Below, piece by piece: positions 2,299-36,967 of a stretch of DNA of 41,501 nucleotides. This DNA is from a virus. Both the position numbers and the translations under genes were made by a program. The stretch spans positions 1 through 41,501 of IMG/VR virus record IMGVR_UViG_3300045051_000730; one strand, 5' to 3'. Each line of letters starts with the position of its first letter. The stretch's first letter is position 1. The notes under the pieces are model-generated. The model was given only the letters and a program-made list of their open reading frames with translations, did no database searches and was not told where the DNA came from.

Positions 2299-2990
2299 AG
2301 ATCTCACCGAAGACGTTCCAGAGCTCGCTCAAGGCGCAGGCCTTCTACCGCAGCGGTGAGGACGCATCGATCGATGGCCTGTGGGGCCTGGGCACCCAGC
2401 ACGCGAGCGAGGATTGGTTCGACTCGGGCGAGGAGCTCATCCTCGTCGAGGCCACGCCGCCGCCATCGGGCGATGATCCGCTGCCGCCGGACTGGTTGCC
2501 CGACTGCAGCATGAAGCGGATCCATATCCACTGGACGGCGGGCAGCTACACGCCGAGCGAGGACGACCTCGAGCACTATCATTTCATCGTCGGCGGCGAC
2601 GGTAAGATCCAGCGCGGCAAGCACTCGATCGCCGACAACGTCTCGACCTCCGACGGCGACTACGCCGCCCACACTAAGGACGCCAACACCGGCGCGATCG
2701 GCGTCTCGGCGGCGTGCATGGCCGGGGCGATTCAGAGCCCCTTCAACGCCGGGAAATATCCACTCAAGCCGGAGCAGTGGTCGCTGCTCGCCGACATCGC
2801 GGCGCAGCTCTGCCGCAAGTACAAGATCGGGGTGACGTCGAAGACGGTCCTGCAGCACGGCGAGGTTCAGCAGCAGCTCGGCATCAGCCAGAGCGGAAAA
2901 TGGGACATCACGGCGCTGCCGTGGGATCCGAATCTCGATGCTGGTGAGGTTTGCGATCAGTTCAGAGGCATGGTCATCGACCGGCTCTGA
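2295..2990 (+). CDS. N-acetylmuramoyl-L-alanine amidase (Ami_2/PGRP type endolysin)
   Basis: Predicted zinc amidase of 231 residues that cleaves the lactyl-amide bond between N-acetylmuramic acid and the stem peptide in peptidoglycan. Residues 1-50 resemble a small peptidoglycan-binding module (SxxxFQ...DGLWGLGT). A linker precedes the catalytic domain from about residue 75, with HIHWTAG giving the first metal His, a YHFIVG strand, the LQHGEV His near residue 195 and a GKWDIT segment that carries the usual third ligand/catalytic position. There is no signal peptide, so export needs a holin, and none is adjacent. It is the last gene of the late operon and converges on the leftward operon. Confidence 0.85.
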   Translation: MKISPKTFQSSLKAQAFYRSGEDASIDGLWGLGTQHASEDWFDSGEELILVEATPPPSGDDPLPPDWLPDCSMKRIHIHWTAGSYTPSEDDLEHYHFIVGGDGKIQRGKHSIADNVSTSDGDYAAHTKDANTGAIGVSAACMAGAIQSPFNAGKYPLKPEQWSLLADIAAQLCRKYKIGVTSKTVLQHGEVQQQLGISQSGKWDITALPWDPNLDAGEVCDQFRGMVIDRL

Positions 2991-2996
2991 AGAACT

Positions 2997-3073
2997 GCCG
3001 GGAGGAGATAGAGCGGCGGCTACAGTCTCCTCCCGGCTACGCACTGCCAGACGGGGGGCACCGGTCCTGGCAG
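2997..3073. terminator. Two inverted repeats at a convergent gene junction
   Basis: A perfect 12-bp inverted repeat (GCCGGGAGGAGA at 2997-3008, complement at 3026-3037, 17-nt loop) is followed by a 7-bp one (CTGCCAG at 3044-3050, CTGGCAG at 3067-3073). They lie between the endolysin and the convergent leftward operon, which suggests bidirectional termination. No T-run follows either stem, so Rho-independent action is not certain. Confidence 0.55.
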
Positions 3074-3126
3074 CGACGCACTATAACCTAATCCTATGCA
3101 GCCAGGTTCCCTTTCTTGTGGAAAAA

Positions 3127-3345
3127 TTAGAACGGCGCCGAGAGCCGCTCGATGACGGCGGCGACCGTGCGGTTGACCTGCTCGAGCAGGGCCTGGGCGG
3201 CGCCGAAATCGGCATTGACCATGGCCAGCTTACGGCTCAGCTCTTCGTTGTCCGATCGTAGCCGAGCGACTTCCGCCCGCGCCTCCGCGAGCTCCGTACC
3301 GATCGAGCGGCGTTGACGTTTACCCTCTTGTGTCTCGGCGTCCAT
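3127..3345 (-). CDS. Small coiled-coil protein, 72 aa
   Basis: Last gene of the leftward operon. The start at 3345 has a GGGGGAG ribosome site about seven bases upstream, whereas a longer in-frame version starting at 3489 would be Arg-rich antisense-like sequence. Residues 10-60 form a charged heptad-like helix (ELAEARAEVARLRSDNEELS), a probable coiled coil, followed by a second helix. The gene overlaps the 3' end of the preceding zinc-motif gene by 109 bp in another frame. Function unknown; dimerisation is likely from the coiled coil. Confidence 0.65.
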   Translation of the reverse strand: MDAETQEGKRQRRSIGTELAEARAEVARLRSDNEELSRKLAMVNADFGAAQALLEQVNRTVAAVIERLSAPF

Positions 3346-3590
3346 ACTGGGTTCTCCCCCTTGGTTGGCAGTGGGACGAAATTCTGATCGAGCAGCTCCT
3401 CGATGCAGCGAGCGCAGATCCTCCGCGTGTCGTTGCGGAGGCAGATGGCGCGGTAGGCGAGGTCGCCGGCCACGATGGTCCGCTCGCACCAGATGCAGCG
3501 GCGCGGGCGGGCGATGCGGCCAGGGCCCCAGAGGTGGCGTCCGAATCGGAACAAGCCTTCCTCGAAGAACTGGATGATGTAGGTCGGCAT
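3237..3590 (-). CDS. Zinc-ribbon-like small protein, 117 aa
   Basis: Starts at 3590 with an ATGA overlap with the upstream gene. The N-terminus (MPTYIIQFFEEG) is followed by CxxC (CIWC) near residue 32, further Cys near 49 and a second CxxC (CARC) near 60, an arrangement able to hold one zinc. The C-terminal third is Arg-rich and could contact nucleic acid. The last 109 bp are shared out of frame with the coiled-coil gene, so the true 3' end may be less constrained. Specific function unknown. Confidence 0.55.
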   Translation of the reverse strand: MPTYIIQFFEEGLFRFGRHLWGPGRIARPRRCIWCERTIVAGDLAYRAICLRNDTRRICARCIEELLDQNFVPLPTKGENPVWTPRHKRVNVNAARSVRSSRRRGRKSLGYDRTTKS

Positions 3591-3868
3591 CACGACAGCA
3601 TCCGGCCGGCGCCCTCGTCGGCGGATTGCTGGGCGTAGTGGTCCCACGCCTTGTCGACGTGGGTCTTCATGTGCTCTCCGGCTTGCTCTGCGAGGGACTG
3701 GGCGTCGGCCTTGGTCATGGCCATGCGCGCGATGGCGTTGACCAGGACCATGAGGGCGGCATTGAGCATCGGCTCGGCCGGCGCGCCATCGGGGATGGCA
3801 TCCCAGAGAATCCGGTAGAGCCGGTGATACTCGGGCGAGGCCTGGCCCTTCTCGGAGAGGTCCATCAT
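3590..3868 (-). CDS. Helical protein of unknown function, 92 aa
   Basis: The double ATG at 3868/3865 follows the AAGGAG contained in the end of the preceding ParB-like gene (Lys-Glu-stop, AAGGAGTGA). The stop overlaps the next start (ATGA). The protein is predicted to be largely helical, with an Ala/Met-rich middle (LNAALMVLVNAIARMAM) that is amphipathic rather than clearly membrane-spanning. No known motif. Early leftward operon member, so a role in DNA metabolism or host takeover is possible but unproven. Confidence 0.65.
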   Translation of the reverse strand: MMDLSEKGQASPEYHRLYRILWDAIPDGAPAEPMLNAALMVLVNAIARMAMTKADAQSLAEQAGEHMKTHVDKAWDHYAQQSADEGAGRMLS

Positions 3869-13906: not shown

Positions 13907-14325
13907 AGATCCGCAAGCGGCAGATGCGAGCGGTGCTCGACGCGCTGTGGCGCGCCTCGATCGAGAGCGGCGTCGACGGCGACCAGGCCCAGGACCAGGC
14001 GAGCGAGGACAAGGCGCTGCTCGGCGTCTACATGCGCCAGGTCGACATCGAGAAGACCAAGGTGCGCGAGCTGCAGGGCGACATCGAGCAGCTGCAGAAC
14101 CAGCTGAAGCAGCGGGAGATCGAGCTCACCGGCAAGACGGCGACGCTGCAGAAGCTGAACGGCCAGCAGGATCTGTTCGTCCGAGTCGCGAGGGCGATCG
14201 ATCAGCTGCAGGACTACGCCTTCCAGCCGAAGGGTAGCCGGAACAACTACGACCTCTGGACCCAGGTGTTGCCCTCGCCGATCAGGGACGAGCTCGCCCA
14301 GATCCGCAAGGCGCTGCGATGGTAG
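13903..14325 (+). CDS. Coiled-coil protein, 140 aa
   Basis: Overlaps the previous gene by four bases. A basic N-terminus is followed by a helical region with an evident coiled coil (residues 45-95: KVRELQGDIEQLQNQLKQRE), then FQPKGSRNNYDLWTQVLPS. No enzyme motif. May form dimers. Function unknown. Confidence 0.6.
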   Translation: MKIRKRQMRAVLDALWRASIESGVDGDQAQDQASEDKALLGVYMRQVDIEKTKVRELQGDIEQLQNQLKQREIELTGKTATLQKLNGQQDLFVRVARAIDQLQDYAFQPKGSRNNYDLWTQVLPSPIRDELAQIRKALRW

Positions 14326-14561
14326 ACGAGCTCGAGGCAGAAGAGCTGCGCGTCGCGAAGGAGGTCGGCCAGAGGATGTTCTTCATCGTCGACCGGATAC
14401 TCCACGGCGCCGAGATGGCGGTCGCCATGACTGCCCTGACCGAAGCCGTCTACCTGGTGCTTGTGAGCGGGGCGCCAGAGGCCAAGTTGACCGTGGCCGA
14501 GATGATCGACACGTTCTGTGAGGGCCTAGTCGCCTGCAAGCCTACCGACCCGGTGCAGTGA
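14319..14561 (+). CDS. Small acidic helical protein, 80 aa
   Basis: Start at 14319 lies within the end of the previous gene. Acidic N-terminus (VDELEAEELRVAKEVGQ), then a hydrophobic helical stretch (MAVAMTALTEAVYLVLV) that is amphipathic rather than a convincing transmembrane span. No recognised family. Confidence 0.6.
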   Translation: MVDELEAEELRVAKEVGQRMFFIVDRILHGAEMAVAMTALTEAVYLVLVSGAPEAKLTVAEMIDTFCEGLVACKPTDPVQ

Positions 14562-14860
14562 TGCCGACGTGCCCGTGCTGTGGCCGCGAGGCGGACATCC
14601 AGGCGATCATCAACTACGAGCTCAGGGGATCGACGCAACGTCGCCTGGCAAACGTCCTGGCCGAGCGGCGCGGCCAATGGCTGCGAGCGGCCCAACTCAC
14701 CGAGCTCGTCTATGGTCCGCGCAAGGATGGCGGCGCGACGCAGAACGCGATCGCGGTCAACTTCGGGCTCATCCGCAAGCGGCTAGCACCCTACGGCATC
14801 CGGCTCGAGGGCCGGTGCGGCGGCGCCGCCAAGACCAATGGCCGACGGATGGACTGGTGA
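14561..14860 (+). CDS. Winged-helix/CPxC zinc protein, 99 aa
   Basis: The start ATG at 14561 overlaps the previous stop (TGATG); a GTG immediately before it is an alternative. The N-terminus MPTCPCCGREA is a Cys knuckle. It is followed by a region with the layout of a transcriptional-regulator winged helix (RRGQWLRAAQLTELVYGPRK, then NAIAVNFGLIRKRLAPYGIR), similar to the OmpR-type C-terminal domain. A small regulator binding phage or host DNA is plausible. Target unknown. Confidence 0.55.
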   Translation: MPTCPCCGREADIQAIINYELRGSTQRRLANVLAERRGQWLRAAQLTELVYGPRKDGGATQNAIAVNFGLIRKRLAPYGIRLEGRCGGAAKTNGRRMDW

Positions 14861-14888
14861 TACGATGCAGTGACAAGAGGAGGAGCGC

Positions 14889-15068
14889 ATGCCAGCAATC
14901 GATGAAGGTTTCGACGCCTGGGAGAACGAGCTGAAGGTGTTGGCCAAGGAGCTCGAGGCGCACATGCGCAAGCCGGTCTTCGATGGCCGCTCGGCATCGC
15001 TCGCGATCACGCACCTGCAGACAGCGGTGCTGTGGGCGCTTGAATCAAACCGCAGGGAGGTCGTGTAA
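14889..15068 (+). CDS. 59-aa helical hairpin, possible Acb2/Tad1-like (DUF7681) protein
   Basis: Start at 14889 has a strong GAGGAG site; the stop overlaps the next start (TAATG). The product has two helices, WENELKVLAKELEAH and SLAITHLQTAVLWALES, joined by a short loop ending in D-G-R-S-A. The pattern Leu-Ala-x-Glu-Leu, then R-x-x-SLAxTxLQxAxxWAxxS, recalls the Acb2/Tad1 hairpin domain. Those proteins sequester the cyclic nucleotide signals of CBASS and Thoeris defence. I identify this from memory of the family pattern only, and ligand residues cannot be verified here. Alternative: unrelated helical miniprotein. Confidence 0.55.
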   Translation: MPAIDEGFDAWENELKVLAKELEAHMRKPVFDGRSASLAITHLQTAVLWALESNRREVV

Positions 15069-15484
15069 TGGGCTCGCTCGAAGAGACGGAACGGATGTCA
15101 GCTGCTGTTGCCAGGGCGCCGCGGGTGAAGCTGAAGGACATCCAGGAAGCGATCGAGACGCGCATCGACATCGATGGCACGACCCTCGCGGCGCTGCAGA
15201 TCCAGCGGATCGGCGTTACCCGTCAGCTTCCCTCGCCGCTTGAGACGTTCTCGATCTGCCTGCTCGTGATGCGGAACGGCTTCGTGGTGATCGGCAAGTC
15301 CGCGCCGGCGTCACCGGAGAATTTCGACCCCGAGCTCGGGCGAACCTACGCCTACGAGGACGCGGTGCGTCAGCTGTGGCCGCTGATGGGCTACGCGCTG
15401 CGCGACAAGCTGGCGGCAGTGCCGCACGCAGCGCCGAGCGGCTACGAGCGCGCCGGTAAGTCCAACGTGCCAGGTGACGCATGA
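15068..15484 (+). CDS. Phage Gp49-like family protein, 138 aa
   Basis: Shows the full pattern of the Phage_gp49_66 family: VKLKDIQEAIETRI, then CLLVMRNGFVVIGKSAPASP followed by ENFDPELGRTYAYEDAVRQL and WPLMGYALRDKL. Members are common in early regions of many phages and prophages. Their biochemical function is unknown to me. Coupled by overlap to the possible Acb2/Tad1-like gene before it and to the next gene. Confidence 0.75.
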   Translation: MGSLEETERMSAAVARAPRVKLKDIQEAIETRIDIDGTTLAALQIQRIGVTRQLPSPLETFSICLLVMRNGFVVIGKSAPASPENFDPELGRTYAYEDAVRQLWPLMGYALRDKLAAVPHAAPSGYERAGKSNVPGDA

Positions 15485-34855: not shown

Positions 34856-36967
34856 ATGGTCGACTATCCGAATAACCCTCCTGCCGGCTCATCGCAGTTC
34901 ACCAGCGCGACGCCTTATCGCGGCGTGACCACGGCGCGGCCGAGCTCGCCGGCGACCCTGATGTCGATGCCCTCGAGCTCGCCCGCCGGCGGCGGCTATG
35001 CCGAGACGCTGCGGGCCGACACCGCCATGCGCTCGCTACCGGCGCCGACTGCAGCTGCAGGGCCGACGCCGACGCGCAATGTCGGATCGATGCCGTTCAC
35101 CGGCGACAGCGAGGCCGGCATCACCGACGCGCGCAACTACCTGCGCACGACCGCTTCGCCAGGCGGCACCATGAGCGCGATCGGCCTCGACAAGGCGATC
35201 GACAATCTCAACCCCGACTATGCGGTGGCCGCAGCCAATGCGGTCTCGGCGGCACGAGCTGCCGGCCTGAAGAACGCTGGGCTGTTCTCTGCCTTCCGGC
35301 CGCCGGATGTCGCGACCCGGCTCGGCGTCAAGGGCATGAGCGACAAGTACCAGTCGTTCCACGCCTACGGCCTGGCCGGTGATTTCGCCGGCGTCGGCAC
35401 GCTCGGCTCGGCGGAGAACCGCAAGTGGTTCTCGATCGCCAACGCTGCCGGCCTGACCAACCCGTACATGAGCTACGGCGCGAAGGGCTACAGCGGCAAC
35501 CCGAAGGAATACAATCATATGCAGCTGACGTCGGCGCACCGGGCGGCGCGCGACGTCCCCGGCCTGCGCGAGACGATTAGCGGCACGGGACCGGTCGATC
35601 GCGAGGCGATGTGGCGGATCGGCTCGGCGGCGCCGCGTGGTGCCGGCGGCACCGCGGTGGCCGTGCGCACTCCACCGACGCCGACGACGCGAGAGGCGGC
35701 GCTCGGCAACATCGCGAACCGCAACGCGCTCGGCTATGCGCCGGCGGAGGCGGAGCCAGGCGCGGCCGGAGCAGCTGCCGCCATGGGCGAGCGCACCGCC
35801 ATCCCTGCAGCAGGCGCTGGCCCCAAGACCGACTTCGACACCTCGCGCGGCATGATGGATCTGGACGCGCTGCGATCCGGCCAGATCCCCTGGAACAGCC
35901 TCCCCCAGGACGCCAGAGACTTCGTCGTGCAGAAGTACGGTCCCATGGGCCAGGCGGCCTATGAGCGCTGGCAGTCGAGCCAGGGAGCGGCCTCGGGCAA
36001 CACGCTGCGGCCTGGCGAGGCCCAGCTGGCCCCTGGAGGGGCCGCGCCGGCGCCGGCGGCTACTGCGGCACCCCCGAGGCCGGCAACGCCGCCTACGGCC
36101 GCCCCAGGCCCCGTGGCGGACGTTCCTACGCCGCGCGAAAACCCGCGCCTGCAGCTCGGCACCGGCAACGACCCGGCGACCTACACCGTCATGCCGGGGG
36201 ACACGCTCTTCGACATCGCCGTCGAGCGCTACGGCGACCCCAACATGGCGAGGCAGCTCGCCGGCATGAACGGCATCCGCAACCCGCGCACCCTGCAGCC
36301 AGGCCAGACGCTGCGACTACCGCCGACGGCGGCCGAGGTGCCGACGCCGCGGGCTCGGCCCGACCCCAACAAGATCGGCCCGACCTATTCGGAGGGCGGC
36401 GACGCCACCCTCACCGCCGGCGGCCGGCGACTGCCCTACGACACGACCGGCGTGCCGGCTGTTCCACGTGGAACACTGCCGCCGACTCGTACCGGCGGGC
36501 CGGATATCAGCTTCTCGCCTGGTGGCGGCTTCTCTGCGCAGCCTCAGGGCAACCGGTCGATGTACGTCGGCGACGAGGGGGGAGCTCCCGGCTCGCGCGG
36601 CGCCACAGGCACTCGCGACTATGCGGCCGAGCTCCGCCGCGGCCTCGACACGACCGGCGTCGCCGGCGAGCCGGCGTTCAGTGCGACGAGCCCCAGCCGG
36701 CTCGCCAACACCATGCTCAACCGCACGCCGATCATGGCCAACGACCCGAACTATCCGGTCTCGGTCGACACTGGCGGCTTCCGCTCCGGCTCCTCGGCTG
36801 GTCGCGTCGACACTAGCCGTGCGGCTACTCCCCGCGCCCCGATGGGAGCTCAGACGCCCTACCCGAATCCGTTCGCGGTGCGGTCTCGCGAGGACGAGCT
36901 GCGCTCGATGCTCGCTCAGCGCGCCCTCGATGCCGCCATGCAGCGCCGGCAGCTGGGAGGCCTCTAA
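34856..36967 (+). CDS. Virion M15-type peptidase with LysM domain, 703 aa
   Basis: Predicted murein peptidase that helps DNA entry. Residues 100-225 hold a VanY/M15 pattern: FSAFRPP, then SFHAYGLAGDFAG, which supplies the S-x-H-x-x-G-x-A-x-D metal pair, and EYNHMQL for the third zinc His. Residues about 440-490 are a LysM domain (YTVMPGDTLFDIAVERYGDP, NPRTLQPGQTLRLPP). Proline/alanine linkers separate them. RDYAAELRRGL near residue 590 is a variant of the recurring DYAxGL motif. The start of the protein is MVDYPN. Contains the parS-like palindrome at 36460. Confidence 0.7.
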   Translation: MVDYPNNPPAGSSQFTSATPYRGVTTARPSSPATLMSMPSSSPAGGGYAETLRADTAMRSLPAPTAAAGPTPTRNVGSMPFTGDSEAGITDARNYLRTTASPGGTMSAIGLDKAIDNLNPDYAVAAANAVSAARAAGLKNAGLFSAFRPPDVATRLGVKGMSDKYQSFHAYGLAGDFAGVGTLGSAENRKWFSIANAAGLTNPYMSYGAKGYSGNPKEYNHMQLTSAHRAARDVPGLRETISGTGPVDREAMWRIGSAAPRGAGGTAVAVRTPPTPTTREAALGNIANRNALGYAPAEAEPGAAGAAAAMGERTAIPAAGAGPKTDFDTSRGMMDLDALRSGQIPWNSLPQDARDFVVQKYGPMGQAAYERWQSSQGAASGNTLRPGEAQLAPGGAAPAPAATAAPPRPATPPTAAPGPVADVPTPRENPRLQLGTGNDPATYTVMPGDTLFDIAVERYGDPNMARQLAGMNGIRNPRTLQPGQTLRLPPTAAEVPTPRARPDPNKIGPTYSEGGDATLTAGGRRLPYDTTGVPAVPRGTLPPTRTGGPDISFSPGGGFSAQPQGNRSMYVGDEGGAPGSRGATGTRDYAAELRRGLDTTGVAGEPAFSATSPSRLANTMLNRTPIMANDPNYPVSVDTGGFRSGSSAGRVDTSRAATPRAPMGAQTPYPNPFAVRSREDELRSMLAQRALDAAMQRRQLGGL
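36460..36475. promoter_or_regulatory. parS-like 16-bp palindrome
   Basis: TGTTCCACGTGGAACA is a perfect palindrome centred on CACGTG, matching the bacterial chromosomal parS pattern TGTTNCACGTGAAACA at all but one position and, from memory, matching the Pseudomonas-type version in full. It lies within the coding frame of the M15/LysM gene (Val-Pro-Arg-Gly-Thr). Host ParB binding is predicted, not shown. Confidence 0.6.

Follow-up and report, generated by a model that had tools for sequence, protein, structure and literature searches.

The described systems closest to this locus are Acb2 from phages PaMx33/PaP2 (p26) and T4 (Vs.4) (PDB codes: 8h2j, 7uq2), Tad1 (PDB codes: 8kbh, 7uav), and Acb4 from SPO1 (PDB code: 9e4w). 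Acb2 is a compact homo-hexamer with one kind of pocket for cyclic dinucleotides and another for cyclic trinucleotides, and by sequestering these signals it protects phages from CBASS. In p26, Y11 and K26 are presumably the residues that contact the dinucleotides, and R67, as we assume, contacts the trinucleotides. The Y8A variant of T4 Acb2 is binding-deficient, and T68M lowers binding (PMC12657230). Tad1 protomers carry an N-terminal four-stranded beta-sheet (PMC12043709). Acb4 belongs to family PF13876; it is a tetrameric sponge for 3'3'-cGAMP and related dinucleotides, and 3'3'-cGAMP was bound by 8/8 Acb4 homologues assayed (PMC11722364).

The window analysed in this study, 41,501 bases long, comprises an entire IMG/VR virus record and comes from a metagenome. 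It contains tailed-phage genes for RecT, a RuvC-like protein, replication initiation, the small and large terminase subunits, a P22-type portal, and a major head protein, and no near relative of it was present in the phage collection. An earlier note, made from the letters of the DNA, had proposed that a 59-aa product encoded in the window is an Acb2/Tad1-type sponge for the signals of CBASS and Thoeris. The open reading frame was recovered with exactly the position and length given there; it is on the plus strand and starts with ATG. Its product is MPAIDEGFDAWENELKVLAKELEAHMRKPVFDGRSASLAITHLQTAVLWALESNRREVV, in which the peptide RSASLAITHLQTAVLWALES carries the R-x-x-SLAxTxLxxAxxWA pattern that had been pointed out. 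An in-frame TGA is located at 14871-14873, five codons upstream, and other start codons are absent between the two; therefore, an upstream start is ruled out. The codon-position GC of the frame (0.65/0.38/0.80) resembles that of the neighbouring genes. The frame is real, and the ribosome site that had been called strong is indeed found five bases before the ATG (Table 1). The placement among early genes holds loosely: the gene lies in a rightward run that begins with an HTH gene, includes the RuvC-like and replication-initiation genes, and precedes the terminases, as judged from gene order. Directly 5' of the 59-aa gene, a 100-aa protein (14558-14860) resembles a winged-helix domain below the threshold (Trans_reg_C, E=9e-4) and is a possible regulator.

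Table 1. Features of the locus, with coordinates in the window, strand, and basis of assignment.
Feature	Coordinates	Strand	Basis or remark
Helical 80-aa protein; perhaps a second, highly diverged hairpin (no assignment made)	14319..14561	+	PF24729 E=0.16
Shine-Dalgarno AGGAGG	14878..14883	+	5-nt spacer to ATG; read from sequence
Mini acb2-like gene, 59 aa, Acb2/Tad1 hairpin family	14889..15068	+	PF24729, 20,000 shuffles, AlphaFold2 hairpin
Hairpin domain with K16, R34, S37, A39, T41, W49, A50	14925..15038	+	PF24729 model positions 14-52/58; column counts
GGGAGG, probable ribosome site of acb4-like gene	15055..15060	+	Inside mini acb2 gene; read from sequence
acb4-like gene, 138 aa	15068..15484	+	PF13876 E=2e-20; phmmer to 9e4w; N4 gp48 identity

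A search with the Acb2/Tad1 hairpin domain, which the earlier note had proposed as a check, was positive. Among 24,736 models, Pfam PF24729 (Acb2/Tad1, hairpin domain) matches the 59-aa protein (hereafter mini-Acb2) with 31.5 bits (E=2.1e-7), above its curated gathering cut-off of 27 bits, and the match spans residues 13-50. It is the only PF24729 match in the virus record at E<=0.001 (E=2.4e-8 there). A leave-out profile, constructed from viral relatives without the query, scores mini-Acb2 at 21.2 bits; when the query was shuffled 20,000 times, the highest score was 11.1 bits. The closest viral relative found is an 85-aa protein with 44% identity over 36 residues, and 51 viral loci were reached starting from it; overall, the identity of mini-Acb2 to its relatives is only 24-34%. 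The profile of alignment A1, which was built with both the 59-aa query and the T4 Acb2 homologue Vs.4 included, finds the solved structures of Vs.4 (PDB code: 7uq2; 1e-12), 'Acb2 homolog 43' (PDB code: 9ptq; 4e-7), Tad1 (4e-4), and p26 (0.005). Searched as a single sequence, mini-Acb2 had no match in the PDB by phmmer, in 50,697 phage records by tblastn, or in the genome contigs, and in PHROGs there were weak matches only, to families of unknown function. By sequence, mini-Acb2 belongs to PF24729, the family of Acb2/Tad1 hairpins.

The AlphaFold2 model of mini-Acb2, based on 38 sequences, consists of two long antiparallel helices (H6-26 and H33-58; pLDDT 86), and no strands are present in it. 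The hairpin anticipated for such a protein is thus predicted, and together with the PF24729 match it supports the family assignment made earlier. Foldseek returned nothing significant for this model against the PDB, as is to be expected of a two-helix hairpin, a fold with few distinguishing features. Mini-Acb2 retains the R-x-x-S-[LI]-A-x-T core, which hardly varies in the family; in the aligned members, R34 is conserved in 48/49, S37 in 48/49, A39 in 46/49, T41 in 47/49, and W49 in 44/49. K16 stands in the column of T4 K23, a conserved basic residue one helix-turn region past the N-terminal Tyr of the family (R in 44/49, K in 5/49). T41 corresponds to T4 T68, and the second-helix R-x6-T core (R34, T41) is present. 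R34 is aligned with R67 of p26, and we tentatively take the conserved Arg of this column to be a trinucleotide contact; T4 Acb2 has no Arg there in the alignment.

It is at the N-terminus that mini-Acb2 departs from the family. About 13 model positions are missing, among them the Tyr seen in 46 of the 49 aligned members, which is Y8 in T4 Acb2 and residue 11 in p26; the column is a gap in mini-Acb2. Two other members are Tyr-less, one with a gap at this column (L052) and one with Glu (L071). When all frames were searched for a YHxP or HxYR motif, no alternative N-terminus turned up, either further upstream or by way of a frame shift, and there is no usable Tyr codon upstream of the ATG.

The gene that follows was overlooked in the earlier note, and it is the strongest contextual support for the Acb2-type reading. 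Its ATG begins on the last base of the mini acb2 stop codon (TAATG, 15066-15070), so that the two genes overlap by one base. PF13876 matches its 138-aa product with 73.5 bits against a curated cut-off of 27, and by this family profile the product is a member of the Acb4 family. It also matches the solved SPO1 protein 'anti-CBASS 4 (Acb4)' (PDB code: 9e4w) by phmmer (E=0.0021), and over a stretch of 58 aa it shares 50% identity with N4 gp48, which has been named Acb4 (PMC12657230). Nine ligand contacts of SPO1 Acb4 (F48, E49, V56, Y57, F62, N63, I66, T70, and K81) were compared in an ungapped alignment: F48 and F62 are kept, I66 is Leu, N63 is Asp, and E49, V56, Y57, T70, and K81 are replaced. 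PF13876 relatives from Gram-negative phages likewise differ from SPO1 at the contacts. Among the PF13876 relatives, those of Escherichia phage Huey and Pseudomonas phage D14C bear the GenBank label 'anti-CRISPR protein' despite belonging to the Acb4 sponge family.

The two families seldom occur together. When 80 virus records containing PF13876 were examined, PF24729 was present in a single record other than the window (IMGVR_UViG_3300009678_000188, L071). It encodes a 58-aa Tyr-less PF24729 protein 277 bp before the PF13876 gene, and the two are linked through one ORF with overlapping starts and stops. Apart from the PF13876 gene, which is 42% identical, this record has in common with the window only a remotely matching terminase (24%) and a single pair of short ORFs; it is otherwise largely unrelated. 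Its Acb4-type partner is the nearest to that of the window among those aligned, so the full independence of the two cases is in doubt, and in two of the three pairs described here the Acb4 genes may descend from a common ancestor. An additional set of 15 records consisted of 14 bacterial assemblies and a virus; three of the assemblies contain PF24729. One of them, Acinetobacter sp. CFCC 10889, has a full-length Acb2 with the Tyr intact, 196 bp after the Acb4-type gene, in reversed order. At 2824-3703 of that record, the Acb4-type gene is followed by a terminator-like sequence, a tRNA-like gene recognised by eye, and then the full-length Acb2-type gene. Both families were together in 0/50 PF24729 virus records and in 0/10 named PF13876 phages; the positive controls of the search, the window and G017, were both recovered. 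Since the families mostly occur apart (1/80, 0/50, and 0/10), a general linkage between PF24729 and PF13876 was rejected. The pair is rare, yet in all three records with both on one contig the genes are neighbours (spacing of 0, 277, and 196 bp), although the cases are few. No description of an acb2-acb4 gene pair was found in a search of mostly open-access literature.

Several other sequences resembling this family were observed. The 80-aa gene in the same run as mini acb2 encodes an all-helical protein in which AVAMTALTEAVYLVL resembles the second helix of Acb2, Thr included. Its PF24729 score of 12.6 bits is below the cut-off, the leave-out profile gives 4.1 bits, the pLDDT of 71 is of low confidence, and no close relatives of the gene were found; it is possibly a second, very divergent hairpin. 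In the record of Cyanophage S-2L, an apparently unannotated Acb2-family ORF (35199-35444) overlaps the start of a 'tail assembly protein' gene. In Paenibacillus larvae phages (e.g. KT361655, MG727702), several records label Acb2-family proteins as 'phosphomannomutase', probably an annotation error that has spread from record to record.

The reading we prefer, with a probability of about 0.58, is that a minimal Acb2-family sponge and an Acb4-family sponge form a coupled pair against CBASS. The two genes would be translationally coupled and their products made together. During infection, both sponges would bind, without cleavage, the cyclic oligonucleotides made by host CBASS enzymes, and possibly the cyclic tri-adenylate of type III CRISPR as well; with the signals soaked up, the suicide effectors would be kept off. 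The Acb4-like protein would take cyclic dinucleotides, while mini-Acb2, as an oligomer, would take mainly cyclic trinucleotides at a trimer interface. This preference is suggested because the Tyr of the dinucleotide pocket is missing, whereas helix 2 retains its conserved Arg and Thr.

Other explanations of mini-Acb2 can be considered. A two-helix fold is of low complexity and the identity to relatives is low, and so an unrelated small helical phage protein might resemble the family by chance. However, the curated cut-off is passed, the leave-out profile scores the protein well above its shuffles, and an Acb4-family gene adjoins, which makes such a coincidence very improbable. It is scarcely credible that the protein is a Thoeris sponge like Tad1, binding gcADPR. 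One Pfam model covers the hairpins of both Acb2 and Tad1, and the R...T spacing of +7 occurs in Tad1 too, but mini-Acb2 is the hairpin alone and has no counterpart of the N-terminal beta-sheet. The Thoeris role included in the earlier proposal accordingly gained no support.

The loss of the Tyr can be read in more than one way. In a full-range Acb2 sponge, other residues such as F8 or W11 would stand in for it, and both di- and trinucleotides would be bound. The short N-terminus does have two aromatic residues, MAFFT aligns F8 to the F of the FTYH motif, and K16 occupies the T4 K23 column. However, the placement is ambiguous, with F8 and W11 falling on Q and R/K columns in another alignment, and the near invariance of the Tyr elsewhere, together with the binding deficiency of T4 Y8A, makes this substitution quite unlikely. 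It is also unlikely that mini-Acb2 is a decayed or repurposed hairpin that has lost binding, the gene being a remnant or one whose product assists or regulates the Acb4-like protein. Such a history would be consistent with the lost N-terminal segment, the divergent C-terminus, the coupling to the Acb4 gene, and the existence of another short family member, also Tyr-less and also encoded beside an Acb4 gene (L071, with Glu). On the other hand, the frame is intact, its ribosome site is strong, and its codon-position GC is normal, while the retention of R34, S37, T41, and W49 suggests selection on the core.

For the coupled sponge pair, a stricter division of specificity can tentatively be proposed, in which an Acb2 that has lost its dinucleotide pocket but retains the trinucleotide site is complemented by Acb4 for dinucleotides, and one transcript may cover the signals of most CBASS types. 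Under this split model, members without the Tyr should be more frequent beside Acb4, though not exclusive there, given the Acinetobacter pair with an intact Tyr. If true, a natural Acb2 that lacks one pocket, accompanied by a different sponge for the ligands of that pocket, would illustrate how phages share out the work among sponges, and mini-Acb2 would be a minimal scaffold for the trinucleotide site. PF24729 next to PF13876 would then be a simple genomic marker for anti-CBASS islands, and paired unrelated sponges would constitute a searchable anti-signal island.

Compared with the known systems, mini-Acb2 adds a short form to a known family and stands in a new arrangement with a second known family; it is not a new type of system. 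It shares with p26 and T4 Vs.4 the helical hairpin, the core motif, the nature of a small phage protein, and PF24729 itself, and it retains the Lys/Arg column and the Thr. Unlike them, it has 59 aa as opposed to about 90. Neither the N-terminal segment that bears the ligand Tyr nor the long insert between the helices is present, and its gene overlaps one of the Acb4 family. Among short homologues with a solved structure, Acb2 homolog 43 (76 aa) ranks next to Vs.4 in the profile search; it has the same RExxS..xT core but a longer N-terminus. Tad1 has in common with mini-Acb2 the second-helix motif S-R-x-x-x-x-A-x-T, whereas its N-terminal beta-sheet domain and gcADPR binding set it apart. Acb4 is represented at this locus by the downstream gene, with several SPO1 ligand residues changed, and is unrelated to mini-Acb2. 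No characterised relative is both this short and Tyr-less. The L071 protein resembles mini-Acb2 in both respects and in its place ahead of a PF13876 gene in an overlapping ORF chain; it differs in having one extra ORF between the genes and in coming from an otherwise largely unrelated phage.
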